Origin: Bacteroidota bacterium
Lineage (GTDB): Bacteria; Bacteroidota; Bacteroidia; Bacteroidales; Paludibacteraceae
Direction: 5' to 3'
DNA length: 64,000 bases
Assembly (NCBI GenBank): GCA_017860295.1
Contig: JAFNAS010000001.1
Location: 248,001 to 312,000, forward strand
Part shown: positions 1,565 to 64,000 of the stretch, one piece after another
How positions within the stretch are numbered: position 1 is the first letter of the stretch
Layout of the letters: every line of letters begins with the position of its first letter
Translations under genes and position numbers: made by a program
Notes under the pieces: model-generated
Databases searched by the model: none
What the model was told of the DNA's origin: nothing
What the model saw: only the letters and a program-made list of their open reading frames with translations

Positions 1565-2338
1565 ATGTTTGGAATCAACCTCAACGGATTAATTCCGCTA
1601 CGATCAGAGGCCGATGAAGGGAGTGAGCAATTAACCCAAATTCTTTTTGGTGAATATTTTATCGTCGAAGAAGTTATTGAACGGTGGGTACGCATTCATA
1701 ACGTCTGCGACAACGAAAAAGGATGGATTGACCGCAAGATGATGACTCCTATTGAAGAAGTTCTTTTCAACAAATTGGACGAACATCAGCCGCTCATTGT
1801 TTCCAAGCCCATTGCATACGCTACCCTTCCCGATGGTACCCGACAGCCTTTGCCTGGAGGTAGCAGACTTCCTTTTTACGATAAAGAAAGACAACAGTTT
1901 GCTATTGGAAGTCGGGTTTTTCAATTTGCCTCGGAAAATACGAATTCAGACAAAACAACGTCCGACTTTGTCGATACGGCACTGTCGTACCTGCACGCCC
2001 CTTATCTGTGGGGAGGAAAGAACATGATGGGAATCGATTGTTCGGGACTGGTACAAGTTTCGGCATTAATTTGCGGAAAACAACTTACGCGCAATGCAAG
2101 GCAACAAATTGAATTCGGAGAACAAGTCAACTTCCTGTCCGAGATAAAACCCGGCGATATCGCTTTTTTTGATCACGATGATGGATACATCAGCCATGTA
2201 GGCATCCTGTTAAACGACCATCAAATACTCCATGCTTCGGGCGAAGTGCACATTGCACCCATCGACAACCAAGGCATCAAATCAGTTATCAACGGCAAAT
2301 ACACGCATTCACTCCGAGTTATCAAAAGAATATGCTAG
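1565..2338 (+). CDS. C40-family (NlpC/P60) peptidoglycan endopeptidase
   Basis: A 257-aa protein with an SH3b-like N-terminal region (about residues 8-60, GWIDRKMM) and a C-terminal NlpC/P60 domain (about residues 130-255). The catalytic Cys is C159 in GIDCSGLV, and the His is H211 in SHVGIL. The WGGKNMMGIDCSG block matches the YkfC-like gamma-D-glutamyl-L-diamino acid endopeptidases that cleave murein stem peptides during cell-wall recycling. There is no obvious signal peptide at the N-terminus, which fits a cytosolic recycling role. A promoter-like box lies just upstream. The next gene starts 35 bp after its stop. Confidence 0.88.
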   Translation: MFGINLNGLIPLRSEADEGSEQLTQILFGEYFIVEEVIERWVRIHNVCDNEKGWIDRKMMTPIEEVLFNKLDEHQPLIVSKPIAYATLPDGTRQPLPGGSRLPFYDKERQQFAIGSRVFQFASENTNSDKTTSDFVDTALSYLHAPYLWGGKNMMGIDCSGLVQVSALICGKQLTRNARQQIEFGEQVNFLSEIKPGDIAFFDHDDGYISHVGILLNDHQILHASGEVHIAPIDNQGIKSVINGKYTHSLRVIKRIC

Positions 2339-2372
2339 CAAGAATCACAGACCTCCTAAAACACCTAATGCT

Positions 2373-3161
2373 ATGAACAATGGACGTTCCCCCGTTTTGT
2401 TTATTGGGCACGGTAGTCCGATGAACGCCATCAAAAACAACGAATTTTCAACACAATGGAAAGAACTAGGGCGCACATTACCTAAGCCTGATGCCATTTT
2501 GTGTATCTCTGCGCATTGGCTCACAAGCGATACTTGCGTCACCGTCTCCCGACATCCGCGAACGATACACGATTTCGGCGGTTTCCCCAGAGAACTGTCT
2601 GATATGCATTATGCAGTCCCAGGGGAGCCGGATCTTGCTGATGACATTATCCGTACACTCAGCGAACTGGAAATCAAAGAGGATTTGGAATGGGGACTTG
2701 ATCATGGTAGTTGGAGCGTTTTAGTTCATATGTATCCGGATGCAGATATTCCTGTAATTCAATTCAGTCTGAATGAGAATCTTTCGGCTCAAAAACATTT
2801 TGAACTTGGGAAGCAACTGGCTTTTTTACGTGACAAAAATGTATTAATTTTGTGCAGTGGAAACATCATTCACAACCTTCGACTGCTCGACTGGAGCAAA
2901 AAGGATGATGACGAATTCGGTTATGATTGGGCAAATACAGTAAATATCCTGATTAAAGACTTGATTATAAACGAGAAAATGGATGATTTATGCAATTATT
3001 CCAAATTGGGTCTGGATGTACGAAGTGCAATACCTACTCCCGATCATTTTTGGCCGCTACTGTATGCCCTTGCTTTGAAACAACCTAATGAAACTATCCG
3101 TTTTTTTAACGATAAGATAGTAATGGGTTCATTATCAATGACCTCATTAATTATCCAATAA
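2373..3161 (+). CDS. DODA-type extradiol dioxygenase family protein (YgiD-like)
   Basis: A 262-aa protein of the class III extradiol dioxygenase (LigB/DODA) fold. FIGHGSPMNAI near residues 10-20 carries the first metal His, AHWLT near residue 48 the second; LDHGSWSVL, IIHNLR and TPDHFWPLLYAL are the other conserved blocks. The E. coli relative YgiD is a DOPA 4,5-dioxygenase; the natural substrate here is unknown. The frame stays open upstream to 2232 inside the NlpC gene. I chose the ATG at 2373 because homologous sequence starts there and it follows the previous stop. It is probably co-transcribed with the flanking genes. Confidence 0.9.
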   Translation: MNNGRSPVLFIGHGSPMNAIKNNEFSTQWKELGRTLPKPDAILCISAHWLTSDTCVTVSRHPRTIHDFGGFPRELSDMHYAVPGEPDLADDIIRTLSELEIKEDLEWGLDHGSWSVLVHMYPDADIPVIQFSLNENLSAQKHFELGKQLAFLRDKNVLILCSGNIIHNLRLLDWSKKDDDEFGYDWANTVNILIKDLIINEKMDDLCNYSKLGLDVRSAIPTPDHFWPLLYALALKQPNETIRFFNDKIVMGSLSMTSLIIQ

Positions 3162-3186
3162 AATTTGTAATTGATATCCAGACATT

Positions 3187-3612
3187 ATGAAAACTAATCC
3201 GGCAGAATGCCTTTATTGCACTAAGAATCAAACCCAGAAAGATTTAATGATAAAGATTTGCGACCTTTCGGTTTCAGAGCTTTTCCTATTTAAAGAACAA
3301 TCGTATCATGGACGTACCCTCGTAGCATACAAAGATCATGTCGACGGTCTTTTTGAGTTAAGCGACGAAGAACGTAACGCTTTTATGGCCGACGTGACCA
3401 AAACGGCTGCTGCCATGAATAAGGCTTTTCATCCAGACAAAATCAATTTTGGAGCTTATTCCGATACGTTATCTCACCTGCACTTCCACATTGTTCCCAA
3501 ATATCAAGGAAAATACGGATGGGGGGGTACCTTCGAAATGAACCCCAAACAGACATACATGAGCGAAGCTGAATACACTCAAATCATCGAAGCGATTAAA
3601 GCTGCTCTCTAA
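3187..3612 (+). CDS. HIT-family nucleotide-binding protein
   Basis: A 141-aa cytosolic protein. The histidine-triad motif HLHFHIVP has His at residues 97, 99 and 101. The N-terminal CLYC pair (C8, C11) is a half-site for the zinc seen in many HIT proteins. HIT proteins hydrolyse or transfer nucleotidyl groups from substrates such as AMP-lysine, AMP-NH2 or Ap4A; the exact reaction cannot be read here. Length is typical. It lies 25 bp after the dioxygenase gene and is followed by two strong terminators, so it ends this transcription unit. Confidence 0.92.
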   Translation: MKTNPAECLYCTKNQTQKDLMIKICDLSVSELFLFKEQSYHGRTLVAYKDHVDGLFELSDEERNAFMADVTKTAAAMNKAFHPDKINFGAYSDTLSHLHFHIVPKYQGKYGWGGTFEMNPKQTYMSEAEYTQIIEAIKAAL

Positions 3613-3632
3613 GGCATATTGCCATCACAATA

Positions 3633-6700: not shown

Positions 6701-6826
6701 AGTGCGGCCATCGCCTACAAAGGGACATACCGAACGGTGATATGCGGATTTCCGTTTGAATCGATCAGTACCGAAACTCAACGCAAAGAGTGGATGCAAA
6801 AAGTAATCCGCTTTTTTGAAAAATAA
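3722..6826 (+). CDS. large secreted amidase-like protein with golvesin-like and Fn3 domains (often annotated xanthan lyase)
   Basis: A 1034-aa exported protein with a Sec signal peptide (residues 1-19). An N-acetylmuramoyl-L-alanine amidase-like fold seems split in two: a first half near residues 155-225 (WQSHGLYYN, LENAGATVFLPRERD) and a second near residues 480-640 (AIHSDAG, VLMELLSHENFADM). A golvesin C-terminal-like beta domain (about residues 230-375, TVLTADAVRFGGG-like end) sits between them. An Fn3 domain follows (about residues 640-735). The last 300 residues resemble a class-I amidotransferase-like fold (GNLFVSGCFVGSDLW). Bacteroidota homologues are commonly labelled xanthan lyase without biochemical proof. 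A cell-wall amidase role is the better reading. The domain limits are estimates. Confidence 0.75.
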   Translation: MKRLILFFCCILYITHVVALRQPNEMKSQIDSLLSGYERLYAGLGKFRVKEIAVNPTEKRVNIYCSEAFSYIPYRPALVTELYSQLDSLTHPGQSDYKVTIYAGNKEISSLIPNMFRPDKQVDKSRLPRKEFQGIPLLLPLSKPYSVSAGLQNRHVALWQSHGLYYNIRINRWLWQRERVFQTVEDKYTMSYVLPYLVPMLENAGATVFLPRERDTQTNEVIVDNNGSSGKSIYRERGGFIETGGNSGFGFTKKQLENTDNPFVLGTYRKASARANENTMFEWLPDIPEEGWYYVSVAYKTVPNSTQHAHYTIYHTGGQTEFSVNQQMGGSTWIYLGRFYFKKGIHSEAGRVTLTGASKNRTAVLTADAVRFGGGMGNIARPDFTYEKIPVKPTAPTTKSDTLRQDMQEETLADAHAQQSTGLPQDSVRADTLRYITKHISVSGRPRYLEGARYWLQWAGMPTQIYHKRIDASPNDYNEDIWARPYWVNYLNGGSVYSGKDSASIGLKIPIDLSMAIHSDAGRVRGDSIVGTLAIYTTLLNNGLFSTGQTRMTSRDLADMIQTQIVSDLHQIGIRNWTRRGLWDRSYAESRETDVPSVLMELLSHENFADMKYGLDPRFKFIVSRSIYKAILKYIAFQHHIPFVVQPLPTSHLASEFVDDTHIKLSWKAEADSLEPSAIANRYIVYSRVEGEGFDNGQITTDTSMTLAVEKGKIYSFRVTAVNEGGESMPSEILSVCRNWNNAPVAMIVNGFDRVSAPTWFDTPSYGGFTDNGVPDKTDISFTGKQNNFNRLNYKGQESASFGNSDANYENTIVAGNSFDLPFVHGQALKAAGYSFVSCSRSAIESSELLQGNYKMVDLILGKEKQVGFGNVNNQPAFRTFTEKLNDALYAYCKTGGNLFVSGCFVGSDLWNNGQADSLGIKFATSMLKYKWHNEKASVSGLVQGISTPYSMFDGKWSFCTQLNEKQYAVESVDGIDPIDNARTVALYPESNVSAAIAYKGTYRTVICGFPFESISTETQRKEWMQKVIRFFEK

Positions 6827-6851
6827 CAAAACGGCTCAAACCTATCGGCTT

Positions 6852-8183
6852 ATGAACATACTATTGTTAGTTATCGGACTTATCATCGGCGCATTGGGTG
6901 TTGCCCTTTGGCTGAACAAACAGTTGGCGGCAACCCGTAATAGCTCGGCCGAAAAAGAGAAGCAGCTCCTGATGCAGCAAGCCGAAACCGATCGTCAGAA
7001 ATCGATTGTAGACGAAACGCTCCGTTTGAAGAGTGAAGAAAACGGGCGATTACAAAGCGAATTAGAGAGTGCAAGAAATACACTCGCCTCCCAAAACGAA
7101 CAAATTGCACGTACTACCACCGAAAACCGATACCTGCGCGAGCAGCTCAGCCAACAGAAAGCCGAGCTCGAAAAGTTGCAGCAAAAACTTCAAACAGAGT
7201 TCGAGAATATTGCCAACCGCATTCTCAAAGAGCGCTCCAACGAGTTCGTGCAACACAACGAAAAAAACATCGGCGAGATTCTGAATCCGTTGAAAGAAAA
7301 AATTGCCTCGTTCGAGAAGAAGGTCGACGAGGCCTACGACAAAGAGTTTCGCGACAAAGTGAGCCTGCGTGAGGAGGTAAAGAAACTGACCGAGCTCAAC
7401 ACGCGGGTTAGCGAGGAGGCCAACAATCTGACCCGGGCGCTGAAAGGCGATGTCAAGAAACAGGGCAACTGGGGCGAAGTAATCCTCGAACGGGTACTCG
7501 AACGCTCGGGTCTCACCAAAGGCCAGGAGTACGAACGCGAAGAGGTGGTGGAGGGTGCCGATATGAGCGTACAACGCCCCGACGTCATTATTCACCTGCC
7601 CGACAACAAACACATCATTGTCGATTCAAAAGTCTCTCTCGTTGCTTACGAACGCCTTATGTCGGCCGAAACGGACGAGCAGCGGGCACTCTTTATCAAA
7701 GAACACATCGCCTCGTTGCGCAGCCACGTAAAACTGCTTAGCGAGAAAAACTACCAGAACGCTCACAACATCAACGCGCCCGATTTCGTGCTGATGTTTG
7801 TACCCATCGAGTCCTCTTTTTCCGTTGCGGTTCAGAGCGATAACGAACTTTTTGCGGATGCATGGGAAAAGAAAATCGTAATTGTAAGCCCCACCACATT
7901 GCTGGCAACGTTACGCACCATCTCTTCCATTTGGAAACAGGAAAACCAGAGTCGCAATGCGCAAGAGATTGCCCGCCTCAGCGGTACGCTCTACGACAAG
8001 CTAGTCGGCTTCGTAGGCGATTTGAGCAAACTGAAAGAGAATATCGACCGCGCCGGAAGCTCGTACGACGAAGCCCTTAAAAAGCTTCAGAACGGGAATG
8101 GCAATATCTTCCGCACTGCCGAACGCATCAAAGAGCTGGGAGCCAAAAGCAACAAACAACTGCCGGAAGAGCTGATCGGATAA
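6852..8183 (+). CDS. rmuC: DNA recombination protein RmuC
   Basis: A 443-aa protein. It has an N-terminal transmembrane helix (MNILLLVIGLIIGALGVAL), a long Glu/Gln/Lys-rich coiled coil (about residues 30-170) and the RmuC nuclease-like domain (about residues 190-420). The latter contains GDVKKQGNWGEVILERVLE, RPDVIIHLPD and IIVDSKVSL, a PD-(D/E)XK-like core. RmuC limits DNA inversion and rearrangement at short repeats. An in-frame TTG at 6816 overlaps the previous gene; I prefer the ATG at 6852 because it begins the membrane helix. It follows the amidase-like gene by 25 bp. Confidence 0.93.
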   Translation: MNILLLVIGLIIGALGVALWLNKQLAATRNSSAEKEKQLLMQQAETDRQKSIVDETLRLKSEENGRLQSELESARNTLASQNEQIARTTTENRYLREQLSQQKAELEKLQQKLQTEFENIANRILKERSNEFVQHNEKNIGEILNPLKEKIASFEKKVDEAYDKEFRDKVSLREEVKKLTELNTRVSEEANNLTRALKGDVKKQGNWGEVILERVLERSGLTKGQEYEREEVVEGADMSVQRPDVIIHLPDNKHIIVDSKVSLVAYERLMSAETDEQRALFIKEHIASLRSHVKLLSEKNYQNAHNINAPDFVLMFVPIESSFSVAVQSDNELFADAWEKKIVIVSPTTLLATLRTISSIWKQENQSRNAQEIARLSGTLYDKLVGFVGDLSKLKENIDRAGSSYDEALKKLQNGNGNIFRTAERIKELGAKSNKQLPEELIG

Positions 8184-12630: not shown

Positions 12631-13581
12631 ATGACCCTACGAAACCTGTTTTTTCTCACCTGTAGCCTCTTTTTCGTTCATTGCACCGTCAGCGTAGCGG
12701 CAAACAGTGCCGAAGCCAATCGACCCAAAGGGTACAATGCCGTGGTAGCCTATGGCGACGGATTTGTGGTTACCGGTTCGGAAGGGAGAATCGACCGGCT
12801 CTCTAAGGCGGGGGCAGTTATCCAGTCGGAAAAGTTTGCAGGAATCGAATTCAACGCGCTGGTGGCACACGACCAGACGATCGTAGTCGCCGGAGAGAAA
12901 GGCACCCTGATGGTTTCGTCAAACAACGGCGGGTTCAAACCCATCGACAGCGGGACGGATAAAACCATTCATACCCTTGTTTTCTTCAACAACAAGATTA
13001 TTGCCGGAACCGATCAGGGAGAACTTTTAGTGGGGACAGAAAATGGCTCGTTCAATAAAATTCAGCTGGCGCTGAAGGGAAATATCGTTTCGTTGTCTGC
13101 CAACAGCTCGGTATGTTACGGCGTGACCGACGAGGGAGAGATTATTCATTCGAAAGACGGGGTACAGTGGGAGATTCTCAATTTCAATGCACTCTATGCC
13201 GGCTATTACAAACCCTGTTCGTTTACCCGGGTACTCGCGGTGGATAGCAGGATTGCAGTAGCGGGAAAACGCGAGGACGGCGCGCCGGTACTCTTCTTTT
13301 CAACACAGGGCAACGTGTGGACCGACCGCAAGCTCGATTACTCGGACGACGAGAGGCAAATGAGCAGTCCGACCGAGGCCCTCAACGACATTTACTACTA
13401 CTATCCCGACGATCTCTATCTCCTTGCCTGCGACAAAGGATTTATGATGCAGATCCCCTCCTGTTCGCACTGCAACAAACTGATCCCGATCGGCACCGAC
13501 GATCTGCGCTGCATGGCTTTCAATAACAATGTATTGCTCTGTGCCGGATCGAACTACAGCATCAAAGCCGTCGATATGTGA
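12631..13581 (+). CDS. secreted beta-propeller-like protein of unknown function
   Basis: A 316-aa protein with a Sec signal peptide (about residues 1-24). The rest is made of repeated blade-like strands of the type xxNALVAHDQTIVVAGEKGTL, IIAGTDQGELLVG and GVTDEGEIIHSKDGVQW, resembling YCF48/BNR-type beta-propellers. Two CxxC-like Cys (CSHCN) lie near residue 279. No catalytic motif is recognised. Its last 60 bp (13522-13582) recur at 13679-13739 with a REP element in between, so the 3' end has been the site of a rearrangement. It has its own promoter-like box and is separated from the GH3 gene by a terminator. Confidence 0.7.
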   Translation: MTLRNLFFLTCSLFFVHCTVSVAANSAEANRPKGYNAVVAYGDGFVVTGSEGRIDRLSKAGAVIQSEKFAGIEFNALVAHDQTIVVAGEKGTLMVSSNNGGFKPIDSGTDKTIHTLVFFNNKIIAGTDQGELLVGTENGSFNKIQLALKGNIVSLSANSSVCYGVTDEGEIIHSKDGVQWEILNFNALYAGYYKPCSFTRVLAVDSRIAVAGKREDGAPVLFFSTQGNVWTDRKLDYSDDERQMSSPTEALNDIYYYYPDDLYLLACDKGFMMQIPSCSHCNKLIPIGTDDLRCMAFNNNVLLCAGSNYSIKAVDM

Positions 13582-13739
13582 TGGTAAATTTTATAAGTTT
13601 CTCTTTTGCATTTTTTTGTGCCGGATCACAGATCCTTGTACTCCATTCCGTCGTCGGATTGCAAATCCGACGAGACAGAATAACAATGTACTGCTCTGTG
13701 CCGGATCGAACTACAGCATCAAAGCCGTCGATATGTGAT
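13522..13739 (+). repeat. 61-bp direct duplication of the propeller gene 3' end
   Basis: 13522-13582 and 13679-13739 are the same 61 bases apart from one T/C difference, so the residues VLLCAGSNYSIKAVDM and their stop are present twice. The 96 bp between the copies contains REP1. Both the gene tail and the REP contain GTGCCGGATC, which could have been the recombining microhomology. Confidence 0.85.
13618..13676 (+). repeat. REP-like palindrome 1 (forward)
   Basis: A GCCGGATCACAGATCC hairpin head, a CTTGTACTCCATTCCG linker and the palindrome GTCGGATTGCAAATCCGAC. It is a member of a six-copy family around the RAYT gene. Confidence 0.8.
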
Positions 13740-13770
13740 TACAAATCCTCTCATCGTAATCGAAGATCGC

Positions 13771-13825
13771 GTCCCGCCGGATTTGCAATCCGACGACGGC
13801 AATGAGTATTAGGATTTGTAATCCG
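13771..13825 (-). repeat. REP-like palindrome 2 (reverse)
   Basis: The same element in reverse orientation: GTCCCGCCGGATTTGCAATC, then a short linker and AGGATTTGTAATCCG. It pairs with REP1 as an inverted couple. Confidence 0.78.
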
Positions 13826-13886
13826 TTACTATATCCAGTTATTTACTGGTCACTATTCAAGAATATCGCTATCGTTTTTAATCGTT

Positions 13887-13939
13887 ACCGGATCGAAGAT
13901 CCTTATACTCCAACGGCGACGGATCGCAGATCCGCCGAT
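13887..13939 (+). repeat. REP-like palindrome 3 (forward, diverged)
   Basis: CCGGATCGAAGATCC head, TTATACTCCAACGGC linker, then GACGGATCGCAGATCCGCC replacing the usual second palindrome. The stem is kept while the arm sequence differs. Confidence 0.7.
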
Positions 13940-13964
13940 ACAACTATTCATTGTATATCTTCTC

Positions 13965-14019
13965 GTCCCGTCGGATTTGCAATCCGACGACGGTAAAGAG
14001 TATTAGGATTTGTAATCCG
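13965..14019 (-). repeat. REP-like palindrome 4 (reverse)
   Basis: GTCCCGTCGGATTTGCAATC, then CGACGACGG and AGGATTTGTAATCCG, ending 13 bp from the RAYT stop codon. Confidence 0.78.
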
Positions 14020-14032
14020 ATAAATTTGACAA

Positions 14033-14575
14033 TTATACCACCACTACAGGCAACAACCCTTTTCCACCGGCATAGTCGATAGCCGAACTATACCGATATT
14101 CGTGAGAATGATTTACTATTTCTGCCTTGACGGGATTGTTGTGAATGTACTCCATCTTTTGCTCGAAATAGTCGTTTAAGAATACCTCCTGAATGTCGGT
14201 TCCTTCCTGCCAAAATCTGTAGTTCTTTATCTTTTTATCGTTCCGACCGCTAAATTCAAACCGATCGAGCATCCATTCTCTCCGGCTTTCCGTTACTTCG
14301 CGTTGTAAGGTGTCGATCAGTTTTTTGCTGGTGTATTTCTTAAAATCGCGCACAATATCGGATACTGTGTTTTCTCCGGTAACTCCGATCAGCAAATGAA
14401 GATGATTGGTCATCAATACCCAGGCATAGATTTCCATACCTTTGTTTTGTATGCAATAATCTAAGGATTCCAATACAATATGCTTATATACCGGACGAGA
14501 AAACAGATCGACCCAATCTACTACCGTTGTAGTAACAAAGTAAACTTTCCCATTTATTCGGTGTTGAATATTCAT
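14033..14575 (-). CDS. REP-associated tyrosine transposase (RAYT, Y1_Tnp family)
   Basis: A 180-aa Y1-type single-strand DNA transposase. The HUH metal-binding motif is HLHLLI within MTNHLHLLIGV (about residues 55-65), and the probable catalytic Tyr is in FKKYTSKKLI (about residue 81). C-terminal FWQEGTDIQEV and MEYIHNNPVKAEIV are typical of RAYTs. These domesticated transposases nick and move REP palindromes and usually exist as single chromosomal genes without TnpB. That fits here: REP4 lies directly after the stop and REP5 directly before the start, in inverted orientation. The ATG at 14575 gives the full fold. The gene looks intact. Confidence 0.9.
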   Translation of the reverse strand: MNIQHRINGKVYFVTTTVVDWVDLFSRPVYKHIVLESLDYCIQNKGMEIYAWVLMTNHLHLLIGVTGENTVSDIVRDFKKYTSKKLIDTLQREVTESRREWMLDRFEFSGRNDKKIKNYRFWQEGTDIQEVFLNDYFEQKMEYIHNNPVKAEIVNHSHEYRYSSAIDYAGGKGLLPVVVV

Positions 14576-14594
14576 AAGCTTTGTATTTTATTTT

Positions 14595-14654
14595 GCCGGA
14601 TCACAGATCCTTATACTCCATTCCGTCGTCGGATTGCAAATCCGACGGGACGGG
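14595..14654 (+). repeat. REP-like palindrome 5 (forward)
   Basis: GCCGGATCACAGATCC head, TTATACTCCATTCCGTC linker and the CGGATTGCAAATCCG palindrome. The 60 bases are identical to REP6 1.2 kb away. It starts 20 bp upstream of the RAYT start codon. Confidence 0.85.
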
Positions 14655-14679
14655 CTACGCCGAATCTGGGACATAAATT

Positions 14680-15768
14680 TTATTTATGTTTTGTAACAAT
14701 TTTGATTACTCCATCCGAACAGTTTTCTCCTTTGTGAGAAGGTTCAATAATTTCAATCTTTTGAACAGCTTCAGGCTGCAAAGCGAATAGTTTTTGCTGA
14801 AGGGAGGGATTTCTACCTACAGCAACGCCATCCAGTTTATATTCCGCAAAAGGATGCCTAAAAATCCAGTTATGGGTCTGTTTATGAATGTATTTTAAGC
14901 CTTTATGCGTTTGTTCATTGGTGGTAAAACGAATGATACCGCTAAAATGAAGTGTACCTTCACAGTCTGTTATCTCTTTTTTCTCCATATCGACACTAAC
15001 CACCAGACTCATATCAACATCATCGACATTACGAGTGTATTGTGCCACCCCATCAATAATATGTAACGGTTCCGTTTCATTCTCTGGCATCGTGTCTACC
15101 GGAAGACGAAGTGTTTGACTGATGTCGAAATAAAAACCTTTGATTCCCGTTTCGTTTTCTCCCACTTCCAAGTAATCACAATTCGAATCGGTAAGAGTCT
15201 GTTGACCTACAGAATGATAACCCAATGCTTTTAGTAAGCTATATTCATGATTGATGGCAACAACGTGCCATGCCGTCTTTTCTGTCAATCCGTCACCTGA
15301 CGAAAGAATCGTGGCCAGCACCATTTCATATTGTTTTTTATATCGATGCGCCTCCCCATCGTTTCCAGTCTTTAAAAGAGCCTCCGACAACAAGAAAAGA
15401 TCGTCAGGATTAAAGGGAAACTTGCGCAAACACTCTTTTTCATACCCAATCAGGACTTTGTATTCCTCCTTCGAAAGCACTTCCGCTTTCAAGAGTTTTT
15501 GCACTGACTCCGGGACAGAGGCAAACTGACGTGGATTATAGGCATGCGATAATGAAAAGCCATAATAGAGCATCTGATAATCTTTGGGGGATAAAGTCGT
15601 GTCACCTCTCTGGTAGCGATCAAATAATACCGGATAGTAATATTGCGAAGTAGAATCGTTAGTGGCTGCTTCTATTCTTCTGTATTCGGGGGGCTGAAAA
15701 GAAGTTTTTTGAGCTGATACAGTAATAGTTGCCAGACAACAAAAAAATACGAATAAAAATATTTTCAT
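14680..15768 (-). CDS. exported DUF4919-like protein with a TonB-plug-like C-terminal tail
   Basis: A 362-aa protein with a Sec signal peptide (residues 1-19, ending VSAQ). Residues about 40-200 resemble DUF4919, a Bacteroidota family with YQRGDTTLSPKDYQMLYYG and helical TPR-like content (FPFNPDDLFLLSEALLKTG). The last 60 residues (LDGVAVG, PEAVQKIEIIEPSHKGEN, SDGVIKIVTK) look like the plug signature of TonB-dependent receptors, also found as tails on other Bacteroidota proteins. The function is unknown. It lies between the RAYT gene and REP6, with REP6 directly upstream of its start. Family call from memory of the pattern. Confidence 0.6.
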   Translation of the reverse strand: MKIFLFVFFCCLATITVSAQKTSFQPPEYRRIEAATNDSTSQYYYPVLFDRYQRGDTTLSPKDYQMLYYGFSLSHAYNPRQFASVPESVQKLLKAEVLSKEEYKVLIGYEKECLRKFPFNPDDLFLLSEALLKTGNDGEAHRYKKQYEMVLATILSSGDGLTEKTAWHVVAINHEYSLLKALGYHSVGQQTLTDSNCDYLEVGENETGIKGFYFDISQTLRLPVDTMPENETEPLHIIDGVAQYTRNVDDVDMSLVVSVDMEKKEITDCEGTLHFSGIIRFTTNEQTHKGLKYIHKQTHNWIFRHPFAEYKLDGVAVGRNPSLQQKLFALQPEAVQKIEIIEPSHKGENCSDGVIKIVTKHK

Positions 15769-15790
15769 ATATCAGATGGTTAATATTTTT

Positions 15791-15850
15791 GCCGGATCAC
15801 AGATCCTTATACTCCATTCCGTCGTCGGATTGCAAATCCGACGGGACGGG
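15791..15850 (+). repeat. REP-like palindrome 6 (forward)
   Basis: The 60 bp are identical by eye to REP5. It sits 23 bp upstream of the start of the minus-strand DUF4919-like gene. Confidence 0.85.
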
Positions 15851-15900
15851 AAAGGCTGGAGCCTTGCTTTTATCTCCGACGTAGGCAGAGCCTACGCCTA
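15851..15900. other. two short perfect hairpins next to REP6
   Basis: AAGGCT-GG-AGCCTT (15852-15865) and GTAGGC-AGA-GCCTAC (15881-15895). They lie between REP6 and the stop of the AbiTii-like gene, and could be transcript-end structures or part of the repeat family. Confidence 0.45.
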
Positions 15901-15913
15901 ACCAGAATTGATT

Positions 15914-16768
15914 TTAGATTATACTTTTTATGCATTCCATTATTATTGGAATATTGTCATATAAACCTCGTGCAGCAACAGCAGCAGAGACTTTTGAAAA
16001 CCAGCTCAAGACTTTTTCTTTTAAGATTTTCTTATTGGGTTCTTGTTCAATATCTTTCAACTCATCGATATATTGCTCTTCCACACCACATTCTTTTAAC
16101 TTGTCATAATCAATGAGATTTTGATAAATAGTTTGTTCTATATTATTTCCGGAAGCAACATTGTTCCCATTTCCATAAATATTATTTGTAATGATACTTT
16201 GAACTGTTTCGGAATTTTCTTTTGTCATCGTGTAATCATTGATTAAATTTGGAAATTCCCGGTCTAATTTCAATAAAGTATCAATTAATTTCTGTTTTGT
16301 CAAGTTAAGAATATGACTTAGCTGAGAAAACTGCATTATTCTATGAACTTCTATTAATTGAGGTTCGTGAGCCATTTCTCGAAACATTTTGACAATGTTT
16401 TGTGGAATATTTTCATAACCTGTATTACTCTTCGCTTCTTGAATATTTACTTCTAAGATAGAAACACTTTGAAAAATATTCATCTCATAGAGAGAAAATT
16501 TTCCTTTAAACATTGTATCCAATGCAGAGGTCTCCATAGGGATAGTTCTTCTTCCTTCAAATGGTACATTTATTACAGCCTGCAACTCACAAGGAATGAT
16601 TCTATAAGAGGGAAGAATATCGAGGCTTGAGTAACCATTCAATTCATTATCAATCCACAATCTAAAATCCTCATTATTAATTTTATGGGCAATCAATTTG
16701 GCCCTTATAAGGGCTTGTGATAATGTTATATTATCATATGCAAGATCCGTTATCAATTTCTTTATCAT
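15914..16768 (-). CDS. AbiTii-domain protein (putative abortive-infection component)
   Basis: A 284-aa cytosolic protein without signal peptide. The N-terminal half (about residues 1-190) matches the AbiTii pattern: LITDLAYDNITLSQALIRAK, then FRLWIDNELNGYSS and LPSYRIIPCELQAV. AbiTii was named from an abortive phage-infection system in lactococci; its biochemistry is not well known. The C-terminal part (about 200-284) is an unassigned helical region with an Asn/Gly-rich hinge (NIYGNGNNVASGNN). The gene is AT-rich compared with its neighbours and lies between REP elements and a minisatellite, as expected for acquired DNA. No partner toxin or antitoxin gene is apparent. Confidence 0.7.
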   Translation of the reverse strand: MIKKLITDLAYDNITLSQALIRAKLIAHKINNEDFRLWIDNELNGYSSLDILPSYRIIPCELQAVINVPFEGRRTIPMETSALDTMFKGKFSLYEMNIFQSVSILEVNIQEAKSNTGYENIPQNIVKMFREMAHEPQLIEVHRIMQFSQLSHILNLTKQKLIDTLLKLDREFPNLINDYTMTKENSETVQSIITNNIYGNGNNVASGNNIEQTIYQNLIDYDKLKECGVEEQYIDELKDIEQEPNKKILKEKVLSWFSKVSAAVAARGLYDNIPIIMECIKSII

Positions 16769-16823: not shown

Positions 16824-16958
16824 TTCCTGTCCTCTGCGATAATCGCGGTTAAGACTGTGTTGCTGCTAACCTGCTACCAACCATCGCTTTCATTACTTAT
16901 AATCAGCCATCAAAACTACAAAAAACAATTCATAAAATAGCTTTTAGGTTAAATTTAT
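16824..16958 (+). repeat. direct repeat copy A (about 135 bp)
   Basis: Shares with 17518-17652 the landmarks CTCTGCGA, CGGTTAAGACT, CAAAACTACAAAAAACAAT and TAGCTTTTAGGT/CAGCTTTCAGGT in the same order and spacing. Both copies can be read as a short peptide with the IAVKT and QNYKKQ signatures. No known gene is recognised in it. Confidence 0.7.
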
Positions 16959-17107
16959 TCATTGTAACCGGAGCGGGATCTTTCTTAATTGAAGCATAAA
17001 CCATCCGAAGGAATAGACCGCCAAACGATACGGGGCAATCGCTGTGGTCGATCGCGTCACCACCAATCGATATGACACCGTTACCCGAAAGGAAAAAAGG
17101 AGCATTC

Positions 17108-17372
17108 TTCGATTCAAATGAATCGTTCATTGATTTCAATTGCTCTCTCATTGAAATCAATCGGTGATCGATTGAAATCAATGCGTCATCCATCGAAATC
17201 AATCGGCGATCGATTGAAATCGATGCGTCATCCATCGAAATCAATCGGAGATTCATTGAAATCGATGCGTCATCCATTTGAATCGATTGGTGATCCATTG
17301 AATTTGATGGATCGTTCATTGAAATCAATCGGCGATCCATTGAAATCGATGGATGATGCATTTGAATGGGTC
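17108..17372. repeat. 21-bp minisatellite, about 12.6 units
   Basis: Units of the type ATTGAAATCRATSSRTSATCC repeat at exactly 21 bp from 17108 to 17372. Many junctions form the quasi-palindrome ATCGATT-GA-AATCGAT. Because 21 is a multiple of three, all frames can stay open: a minus-strand frame (16930-17487) reads heptads like DDASISM/DRRLISM and a plus-strand frame reads GDRLKSM/RHPSKSI. I do not call either a gene. The flanks 16959-17107 and 17373-17517 hold nothing recognisable. Confidence 0.9.
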
Positions 17373-17517
17373 TAGAGAATCTATTCAATAAACTGTGCCA
17401 GGATTCAGTCCCGTCGGGACTAAAGATCAGGACGGCTAATTGCAATCCGGTAATCAGACTCCTGCTGCTGCACGAATTGAAAATCACCGAAGTTAATGCA
17501 TCGTTTGTCCTGCATTA

Positions 17518-17652
17518 TGCTGTTCTCTGCGAAAATAGCGGTTAAGACTCTTGTGTTGACAATCAGCTTTCATACAACGCTTTCTATCTTAAAAATCAGC
17601 TTTCAAAACTACAAAAAACAATGTAGAAAACAGCTTTCAGGTAAAATATATT
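17518..17652 (+). repeat. direct repeat copy B (about 135 bp)
   Basis: Diverged copy of 16824-16958 in the same orientation, 694 bp downstream. Roughly three quarters identical by eye. Together the copies bracket the minisatellite. Confidence 0.7.
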
Positions 17653-17670
17653 TAACCGATAGCGGCAAAC

Positions 17671-62211: not shown

Positions 62212-64000
62212 TTACGGTATCTGAAAAAAAAGTATTGAAGATGATGATTTATTTCTCAGAACAGAAACTGTATTGTCACTATTATTAGCCACCGCCAGGT
62301 CGGGCTTACCATCCCCGTCCAGATCCCCGATGGCAACACTATAAGGTTGACTTCCCGTTGCAAAATCAACTTTCGAGGCAAAAGAGCCTGTGGTAATGGA
62401 GCCGGAGGCAGCCGTATTGCACAGTACCGAGACGGTATTGTCATAAAGATTAACCACCGCCAGGTCGGGCTTGCTATTCCCGTCCAGATCCCCGATGGCA
62501 ACACTATAAGCCCCACCTCCCGTTGCAAAATCAACTTTCGAGGCAAAAGAGCCTGTGGTGATGGAACCGGAGGTAGCCGTATTGCGCAGTACCGAGACGG
62601 TAAAGGCGGTGTAATTAGCCACCGCCAGGTCGGGCTTGCCATCACCGTCCAGATCCCCTATGGCAACACTAAAAGGTAGACTTCCCGTTACAAAATCAAC
62701 TCTCGAGGCAAAAGAGCCGGAGGTAATGGAGCCGGAAGTAGCCGTATTGCGTAGTACCGAGACGGTATTGCTAGCCTGATTAGCCACCACCAGGTCGGGC
62801 TTGCCATCCCCGTCCAGATCCCCTATGGCAACAGATTGAGGATAATATCCCGTTGCAAAATCGACTTTCGAGGCAAAAGAGCCGGAGGTAATGGAACCGG
62901 AGGTAGCCGTATTGCGTAGTACCGAGACCGTCGCACTATTAACATTAGCCACCGCCAGGTCGGGCTTGCCATCCCCGTCCAGATCGCCTATGGCAACACT
63001 ATAAGACCAACCTCCCGTTGCAAAATCAACTTTCCCGGCAAAAGAGCCTGTGGTAATGGAACCGGAGGTAGCCGTATTGCGTAGTACCGAGACGGTATTG
63101 TCATTATAATTAGCCACCGCCAGGTCGGGCTTACCATCCCCGTCCAGATCGCCTATGGCAACACTATAAGCCCCACCTCCCGTTGCAAAATCAACTTTCG
63201 AGGCAAAAGAGCCTGTGGTAATAGAACCGGAGGTAGCCGTATTCCGAAATACGGAGACGGTATTGCCACCATTATTAGCCACCGCCAGGTCGGGCTTGCC
63301 ATCCCCGTCCAGATCCCCTATCGCAACACTATAAGGCCAACCTCCCGATGCAAAATCAACTTTCCCGGCAAAGTCACCGGGCATGATAGAATTCTTGGTT
63401 TTAAAGGTGGGTATAAACGGATTGGCTACCCGGTAGGAATAACCTGTGTAGCCTCCCACCGTTACAGAGATCGGTTGCCAGGTGGCCCCGGAAGGGGCCG
63501 TTACCGTTAGCTGTGTTCTTGTAGCGGCAGTTACAGTGGCCTGTACCCCTCCAAAATAAACGATATTATTGCCCGCCGTGCTGCGGAAACCGATTCCGGT
63601 AATGATGACCGTGGTGCTGCCCGCATCTCCCGTAGGGCCGCTCTTCGGGCTAAATGAGATAATAACAGGAATCGACGAAAGATTGCCCAATACCGAGACG
63701 GTATTGTCATTCGCATTAACCACCGCAAGGTCGGGCTTGCCATCCCCGTCCAGATCCCCTATGGCAACACCATAAGGATTAGTTCCCGTTGCAAAATCAA
63801 CTCTCGCGGCAAAAGAGATGAAACCGGAGGTAGCCGTATTGCGCAGTACCGAGACGGCATTGTTATCCCAATTAGCCACCGCCAGGTCGGGCTTGCCATC
63901 CCCGTCCAGATCCCCTATTACAACACGAACAGGTTGACTTCCAGTTGCAAAATCAGCTTTCACGGCAAAAGAGCCGGTGGTAATGGAACCGGATGTAGCC
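62212..64000 (-). CDS. FG-GAP/VCBS repeat protein with IPT/TIG domain (N-terminus outside the window)
   Basis: At least 595 residues, the frame entering from the right edge; the GTG at 63963 is only an internal codon. Nine copies of a 55-aa FG-GAP repeat are visible, each with a calcium-binding-like IGDLDGDGKPDLAVAN loop (one copy has GNSK instead) and ending VSVLRNTATSGS. An IPT/TIG domain (ISFSPKSGPTGDAGSTTVII) lies between the second and third. The repeats form a beta-propeller, usually on secreted adhesins or enzymes. The protein ends NKSSSSILFFQIP with no T9SS C-terminal domain, so its export route or an original longer end is unclear. Confidence 0.88.
   Translation of the reverse strand, partial: ATSGSITTGSFAVKADFATGSQPVRVVIGDLDGDGKPDLAVANWDNNAVSVLRNTATSGFISFAARVDFATGTNPYGVAIGDLDGDGKPDLAVVNANDNTVSVLGNLSSIPVIISFSPKSGPTGDAGSTTVIITGIGFRSTAGNNIVYFGGVQATVTAATRTQLTVTAPSGATWQPISVTVGGYTGYSYRVANPFIPTFKTKNSIMPGDFAGKVDFASGGWPYSVAIGDLDGDGKPDLAVANNGGNTVSVFRNTATSGSITTGSFASKVDFATGGGAYSVAIGDLDGDGKPDLAVANYNDNTVSVLRNTATSGSITTGSFAGKVDFATGGWSYSVAIGDLDGDGKPDLAVANVNSATVSVLRNTATSGSITSGSFASKVDFATGYYPQSVAIGDLDGDGKPDLVVANQASNTVSVLRNTATSGSITSGSFASRVDFVTGSLPFSVAIGDLDGDGKPDLAVANYTAFTVSVLRNTATSGSITTGSFASKVDFATGGGAYSVAIGDLDGNSKPDLAVVNLYDNTVSVLCNTAASGSITTGSFASKVDFATGSQPYSVAIGDLDGDGKPDLAVANNSDNTVSVLRNKSSSSILFFQIP

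Follow-up and report, generated by a model that had tools for sequence, protein, structure and literature searches.

The window analysed here is a 64-kb stretch of Bacteroidota DNA (G000:C1:248001-312000) from a genome of 3.39 Mb in 25 contigs, called the own genome below. It carries the gene of a REP-associated tyrosine transposase (RAYT, TnpAREP) among six repetitive extragenic palindromes (REPs). With a probability of about 0.85, this is a REP-RAYT system (REPtron) of subclass 2.6 that would move A-RAYT-B blocks and RAYT-less A-B units, A and B being two kinds of REP. Observed in its favour are the structure of the REP unit, its polarity and foot tag, compensatory changes in the stems, the boundaries of the RAYT block, its different sites in different genomes, and pairs of REPs resembling REPINs.

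The RAYT and the REP units of the window

The original prediction, made from the sequence alone, had named an intact Y1 transposase at this place, and the REP model, motifs and predicted fold all agree with it. The open reading frame (ORF) scored 101.9 bits with NCBIfam NF047646 REP_Tyr_transpos (cut-off 80). Its NHLH, W122-Q123 and YIHNNP motifs fit those of subclass 2.6 (NH[LIV]H, WQ, YIH[QN]NP), which corresponds to Bertels group 5 (Quentin et al. 2018, PMC6006769; this paper, PMC8266576 and PMC3733652 are cited from part of their text). It shares with the subclass the phylum, the length (180 aa, median 179), the HuH-Y distance (about 83, median 82) and flanking repeated hairpins with copies elsewhere in the genome, together with a low copy number of the gene. 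H58, H60, W122 and Y143 are invariant across 50 aligned RAYTs, five from the genus and 45 from the 80 loci of the phylum described below. The predicted structure has a predicted local distance difference test score (pLDDT) of 93.9, and its best PDB match is 4er8, a RAYT bound to a REP hairpin (Foldseek 4e-9; VIA superposition with Z 15.1 and root-mean-square deviation 2.5 over 134 residues). Motifs and modelled fold thus confirm the predicted product as a RAYT of the published Bacteroidetes subclass 2.6.

All six related elements claimed by the original prediction, in both orientations, were recovered by nhmmer within 13615-15851. The string GGATTNNNAATCC starts at seven places in the window, all from 13656 to 15827, and the six units are therefore not due to chance. 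REP4 and REP5 bracket the RAYT gene in inverted orientation, as claimed, and the identity of REP5 and REP6, given as 60 bp, is an exact match of 64 bp. The reading as a REP-RAYT island stands for the six units and the RAYT; the DUF4919 gene between the identical units is no part of the transposase. From left to right, the order is the 316-aa gene, B(+), the 68-bp copy of the gene end, an A(-) B(+) pair, A(-) RAYT B(+), DUF4919, B(+) and AbiTii:

12631-13581 (+): 316-aa gene; the RAYT block lies to its right in the own genome, G006 and G001, and the duplicate stems from its 3' end
13615-13679 (+): REP1, type B unit (nhmmer), perhaps the remnant of a first RAYT block
13679-13746 (+): 68-bp duplicate, 94% identical, of the 3' end of the 316-aa gene (source 13522-13589)
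13767-13831 (-): REP2, type A unit, left half of an inverted, REPIN-like pair
13882-13943 (+): REP3, type B unit, degenerate, right half of the inverted pair
13961-14024 (-): REP4, type A unit, end of the RAYT block at the RAYT 3' side
14033-14575 (-): RAYT (TnpAREP), 180 aa, with NHLH (H58, H60), W122-Q123 and predicted catalytic Y143 (YIHNNP)
14591-14654 (+): REP5, type B unit, end of the RAYT block at the RAYT 5' side
14680-15768 (-): DUF4919 gene, 362 aa, between two identical direct REP units (REP5, REP6)
15786-15851 (+): REP6, type B unit, exact 64-bp match to REP5
15914-16768 (-): AbiTii-family gene, neighbour of REP6 and possible island cargo

The 68-bp duplicate, absent from the original prediction, directly follows REP1, whose inner flank is by eye similar to the RAYT 5' flank. 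The units had been described as REP-like palindromes. Each, of about 64 nt, is bipartite, with a strong hairpin of 3-nt loop outside and a weak hairpin (about 12 nt) inside, and the second and third units form one pair. Two kinds were sorted by eye according to the side of the weak hairpin, A at the RAYT 3' side and B at the 5' side, and in the pairs of the window the strong hairpins are outermost. REP2 and REP3, inverted and with a short spacer, have the make-up of a REPIN, and further RAYT-less inverted pairs are found in L060, L062, L084, L101, L102 and L103. Five of the six units were folded as single-stranded DNA against 200 shuffles each. Three folded better than all shuffles (z -4.3, -3.9 and -3.2) and one fairly well (z -1.9, 10/200 shuffles as good), while the degenerate REP3 folded no better than chance (z -1.0, 33/200).

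The foot tag was counted in 68 units from six genomes of the genus, in a frame one base shorter than that of the phylum count below. A hairpin was recognisable in 46, of which 44 have G-Y. The commonest tag is GTCC (23/46), and the canonical GT[AG]G tetranucleotide is represented by a single GTAG. Many units lie between ORFs and some overlap predicted ones, e.g., L064 2248-2311 with 2269-3426. In six islands, no Rfam family scored above its gathering score. Several units (L062:4544-4625, L065:6464-6547, L064:1889-1972, L088:5799-5879 and L092:6699-6781) have an insert in the loop of the strong hairpin, about 20 nt long and of two sequence variants, as if sub-lineages with an enlarged loop had spread.

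A hairpin code around RAYT genes of Bacteroidota

Of 551 stretches confirmed in a search with the RAYT alignment, the best 80, all in Bacteroidota records, were kept, and the counts of loci below refer to these. Their identity is 44-72%, the highest in Paludibacter. Perfect hairpins (stem of at least 6, loop of 3) were counted without any motif, near the gene and 1.5-2.8 kb away. There were 132 in 23.6 kb left of the genes (5.6 per kb) and 151 in 23.5 kb right of them (6.4 per kb), compared with 41 and 68 in about 90.7 kb each (0.45 and 0.75 per kb) at the distant places. Triloop hairpins are thus about tenfold enriched beside RAYT genes, and they are polarised, with TGY at the 5' and RCA at the 3' side. 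The commonest loops are ATT-TGC (29) and ATT-TGT (16) on the left, 45 of the 132, and ATT-GCA (44) and ATT-ACA (18) on the right, 62 of the 151; a minority has the opposite polarity (ATT-GCA 8 left, ATT-TGC 10 right). On the left there were 73 hearts ATTTGYAAT (3.1 per kb), and on the right 84 of the complementary sequence (3.6 per kb); at the distant places the density was 0.06-0.08 per kb. Hearts of the expected polarity are on both sides in 37 loci and on at least one side in 49. The claim that the RAYT of the window has its own REP sequence does not hold, as the ATT-TGY-AAT heart surrounds many RAYTs throughout Bacteroidota.

Of 120 pairs of consecutive hearts up to 45 nt apart, 96 have a spacing of 28-31 nt. 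The 10-bp stem is directly flanked on its outside by the foot tag G-Y-T, with G in 55, Y in 58 and T in 56 of 64 distinct hairpins from 37 loci; in this count a default stood in for gene ends that were not entered, with a deviation of up to about 50 nt, or of about 200 nt in L151 and L192. Pairing was followed in an alignment of 62 of 63 units, an atypical one of L144 being left out. The heart motif served to select these units, so that its columns could not vary, and pairing is tested only by the strong-helix pairs outside the heart and two weak-helix pairs. Paired cells made up 97.7% of 930 (80.3% in shuffles), compensated double changes numbered 147 (43 in shuffles), and covariation was 0.41, compared with at most 0.07 when slid. 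For L192 the default gene end was about 215 nt off, so that one unit of the 62 (L192:4548-4596) falls within the reported match range. An inverted match of at least 30 bits between the flanks was found in 40 of the 50 loci used for this comparison and in 38 of 200 mismatched locus pairs, which likewise share the motif.

The repeats could be transcription terminators or mRNA hairpins, and the RAYT a neighbour without a role in their spread. In several cases units do follow gene ends, and most of those tested folded well. This explanation is nevertheless very improbable, as the same polarity, loop, foot tag and spacing of two hairpins are seen at RAYT genes throughout Bacteroidota, the density of hairpins falls about tenfold at 1.5-2.8 kb, and a terminator needs no conserved TGY loop or tag.

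The original prediction had presented the island as a clear Bacteroidota example of RAYTs mobilising REPs. A RAYT with its repeats is indeed present, but Bacteroidetes RAYTs with flanking structures were published before (PMC6006769). In the part of that paper cited here, these structures are termed "atypical", weaker and without GT[AG]G; here they are resolved into a unit of two hairpins that has a polarity and a G-Y tag. The REPtrons of E. coli and S. maltophilia (PMC8266576; 4er8) share the HUH/Y1 fold and a hairpin REP with foot tag, and the REP of S. maltophilia also the short perfect hairpin with 3-nt loop (PMC8266576), but their tag is GTAG and their hairpin single, in contrast to the GYT (GTCC) tag and the second, inner hairpin here. 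As in REPINs (a definition taken partly from PMC6006769), two inverted REPs with a short spacer form a RAYT-less unit, but here the halves can be told apart as A and B, each corresponding to one end of the RAYT block. The CGTC-tagged REPs (Di Nocera 2013, PMC3733652) have a similarly CGTC-rich stem foot, and their superfamily was reported also from Bacteroidetes. As far as the cited part of that paper goes, they have a loop of 4-5 nt and no dedicated transposase, unlike the 3-nt loop, adjacent RAYT and two hairpins per unit here, and the repeats were not assigned to this superfamily.

In the literature searched, which did not extend to supplementary tables, subscription papers and preprints, no REP structure of subclass 2.6 was found beyond the words "atypical" and "weaker", and PMC6006769 was the only source on Bacteroidetes REP sequences with TnpAREP. 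Words beginning with Bacteroid are absent from the main texts of PMC8266576 and PMC2817692, and the core string GGATTTGCAATCC occurs in one paper, on fish primers. The family is thus already published, and its bipartite, recurrent REP grammar is apparently undescribed in the literature searched, though supplements may hold an earlier description.

The RAYT block and its copies in the genus

The further REP copies expected across the genome were found, 28 matches at E<=0.001 in the own genome. They are not dispersed, as had been supposed, but gathered in seven clusters on six contigs (C1, C6, C9, C16 with two, C24 and C25). A 21-nt palindromic pattern with up to 3 mismatches occurs there at 24 places, its reversed control at one. 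Among sister genomes, the repeats are present in six of the eight of the genus and absent from two, and no match was found in 33 genomes from other genera. The unit is genus-restricted among these 41 genomes. The RAYT is found at an identity of at least 80% in five of the eight, namely the own genome, G006 (two), G003, G001 (with one in-frame TGA) and G004. There is little sign of carriage by phages or plasmids, since a single relative in viral contigs has 28% identity, phage records gave no DNA match, and five plasmid records hold relatives of 31-45% identity.

In comparisons of the window block with G006 and with G001, each alignment reaches to within 0-7 bp of the outer REP end at either side. 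Between G006 and G001, which have the gene side in common, the distance from the outer end is 1-3 bp at the far side. With G003, G004 and the second own copy, the block alone aligns (high-scoring segment pairs of at least 300 bp). Because only the block aligns between contexts and ends so near the outer REP ends, it is, judged from the alignments, a unit defined by its REPs, old at the site of the window and at other sites elsewhere. It adjoins the 316-aa gene in three species (own, G006 and G001). In G003 other genes follow this gene, and the block is found at another place of the same contig; the corresponding site of G006 holds 1.1 kb of different sequence with no detected repeat. The expected absence from orthologous sites in relatives was thus seen for G003, not for G006 and G001.

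G006 has two tandem RAYT blocks, with 144 bp of the 3' end of the 316-aa gene between them, and the 68-bp copy of the window looks like a decayed form of such a duplication. The block is not a fresh insertion, as it occupies the same site in three species. Recent activity had been proposed from the identity of REP5 and REP6, but the two units are neighbours in direct orientation with a gene between them, an arrangement for which recombination or duplication is an equally good explanation. With the block old at its site and the gene end duplicated in tandem, their identity is not read as proof of recent transposition.

By analogy with TnpAREP of E. coli and S. maltophilia and with IS608, a course of binding, cutting, strand transfer and strand choice can be proposed. 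The 180-aa HUH/Y1 enzyme would bind the two-hairpin REP on single-stranded DNA, e.g., on the lagging-strand template. The outer, strong hairpin of this REP has a TGY triloop, an ATT closing stem and a G-Y foot tag, and about three helical turns separate it from the inner, weak hairpin. Two mirrored REPs would be cut at their outer ends and joined elsewhere, and the mobile products would be the A-RAYT-B block and the RAYT-less miniature A-B (REPIN).

It is improbable that the block is an ordinary insertion sequence of the IS200/IS605 type, with A-RAYT-B as the autonomous element and solitary repeats as its broken ends. In its favour, end repeats delimit the block, its site differs between species, and G006 has two copies in tandem. 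The end hairpins of IS608 are direct, however, while those of the block are inverted. The IS200 model scored 32.9 bits, below its cut-off of 55, while the REP model is above its own. Several inverted pairs have no RAYT, and RAYT matches number 1-7 per genome in the 61 of 247 sampled Bacteroidota genomes that have any. The tyrosine motif, YIHNNP, ends in NP and not in the Q of class 1 (classes from PMC6006769), and membership in IS200/IS605 was rejected.

Several observations weigh against the REP-RAYT system as proposed. Copies in the own genome are few and clustered, unlike typical REPs of high copy number and dispersed position, and G005 has two REP matches and no RAYT match. A phmmer search of PDB sequences found no relative of the RAYT. 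In 31 of the 80 loci there is neither a TGY heart on the left nor an RCA heart on the right, though some of these carry other triloops (GTT-TGT, GAT-TGC, GTC-TCT). The strong hairpin is not always outside, the outer stem being longer in 69, shorter in 33 and equal in 18 of the 120 heart pairs, a count that includes units lying the other way round. The genus departs from the phylum in the third base of the tag, mostly C instead of T, and in the distance between hearts, about 33 nt (counted by hand) instead of the usual 28-31. Finally, co-occurrence is weak. An exact 15-mer was found in 12 of the 247 genomes, own included (reversed control 0), and a RAYT in 6 of these 12 versus 55 of the other 235 (Fisher P=0.078); for genomes with at least four copies of the 15-mer it was 5/7 versus 56/240 (P=0.011; P=0.033 with the own genome excluded).

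Some other elements were observed. Two more RAYTs of the own genome lie at G000:C25:61340-61879 and 62661-63194, an 87% copy with two in-frame stops and an intact 45% copy, the latter with an 87% DNA relative (about 760 bp) in G001:C6. A second dispersed family of about 170 bp, with ends by eye mutually inverted around internal palindromes, adjoins REPs (L064:959-1131, 1993-2165 and 3438-3614, on G000:C24) and has partial matches on several contigs of G003, G001 and G006. A tandem array of 21-bp (42-bp) units in about 10 copies is at 17149-17362 of the window, inside ORFs 16930-17487 (-) and 17118-17375 (+), and another 21-bp array is at L064:13894-14283.

Gene turnover at the REP islands

Some repeats sit at the edges of gene-variable segments, and the islands may therefore exchange genes between repeats, by RAYT or by ordinary recombination, which at this stage is suggestive only. 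Between L084 and L101 the genes left of the REP pair differ, and homology begins within 4 bp of the outer REP end; between L086 and L102 the order of two blocks is exchanged. One site of the own genome holds a pair, a 728-aa gene, a pair, a 239-aa gene and a pair, though its right flank also lacks a further gene; the counterpart is REP, a 193-aa gene and REP in G001, and a single pair in G003. Homology of the DUF4919 gene to G003 (83% in DNA) extends from 24 bp past REP5 to the first bases of REP6. The homologue in G003 (80%) lies on another contig, and no REP was detected around it in the 15 kb fetched.

Homology breaks within 10 bp of an outer REP end were found for 5 of 29 units, against a mean of 0.9 for random intergenic points (P=0.0018), and for none of the 29 at inner ends. 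Both sides of L084/L101 and L086/L102 are counted here, so that the five make about three independent cases; units of the RAYT block were excluded, and the presence of REPs was what the loci were selected for. There are also breaks at a distance from REPs, and one 17-kb REP-free comparison had none.

That the islands of the genus are platforms of gene exchange, gaining and losing single genes as segments joined by the RAYT at outer REP ends, is doubtful. These genes are mostly of no known family, some being defence-like (AbiTii, SLATT, PDC-S19). Among the loci compared, no cargo gene was bracketed by REPs at two unrelated sites. The search for the 728-aa gene, the single cargo gene sought in the genus, gave only a partial match of 26% in one of its 7 other genomes, and it lends the cassette idea no support. 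An integron array was considered for the single genes between repeats, but no integrase was found among 34 proteins, a subset of the island ORFs, scanned with Pfam. Homologous recombination between the repeats explains the turnover as well as RAYT action does. Plain recombination of this kind, or coincident intergenic features, without cassettes made by the RAYT, is somewhat probable. Identical repeats of 64 bp can recombine, REP-edge breaks arise either way, their enrichment comes from about three independent cases, no gene was seen as a cassette at two sites, and the surroundings of the DUF4919 homologue of G003 showed no detected REP; that units have such breaks at outer and never at inner ends speaks against it.

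Matches to defence models in or beside REP clusters are AbiTii in the window, SLATT (RTasSLATT; L064:151-900) and PDC-S19 (L061:7355-8347), 3 of 20 island proteins scanned with PADLOC, for which there is no background rate. Stretches 16825-17001 and 17520-17654 of the window match one place in G006 (L083 about 6716-6891), on the far side of the variable segment. As G003 matches there too, they may mark the right edge of a hotspot.

In the part of PMC6006769 cited here, RAYTs of subclass 2.6 were listed without a described recognition rule. The grammar found here consists of a G-Y tag, a paired stem of about 10 bp that varies in sequence, the ATT-TGY-AAT heart and a weak hairpin 28-31 nt inward, mirrored about the gene. 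It predicts a DNA substrate for the RAYT and offers a means of finding REPs of this class in genomes of Bacteroidota. Both the spreading of REPs by RAYTs and the exchange of genes at REP islands thereby become testable. If the RAYT did join genes at the islands, these would be the counterpart, on single strands, of a gene-cassette array, and the transposase driving them would be one supposed to be domesticated.

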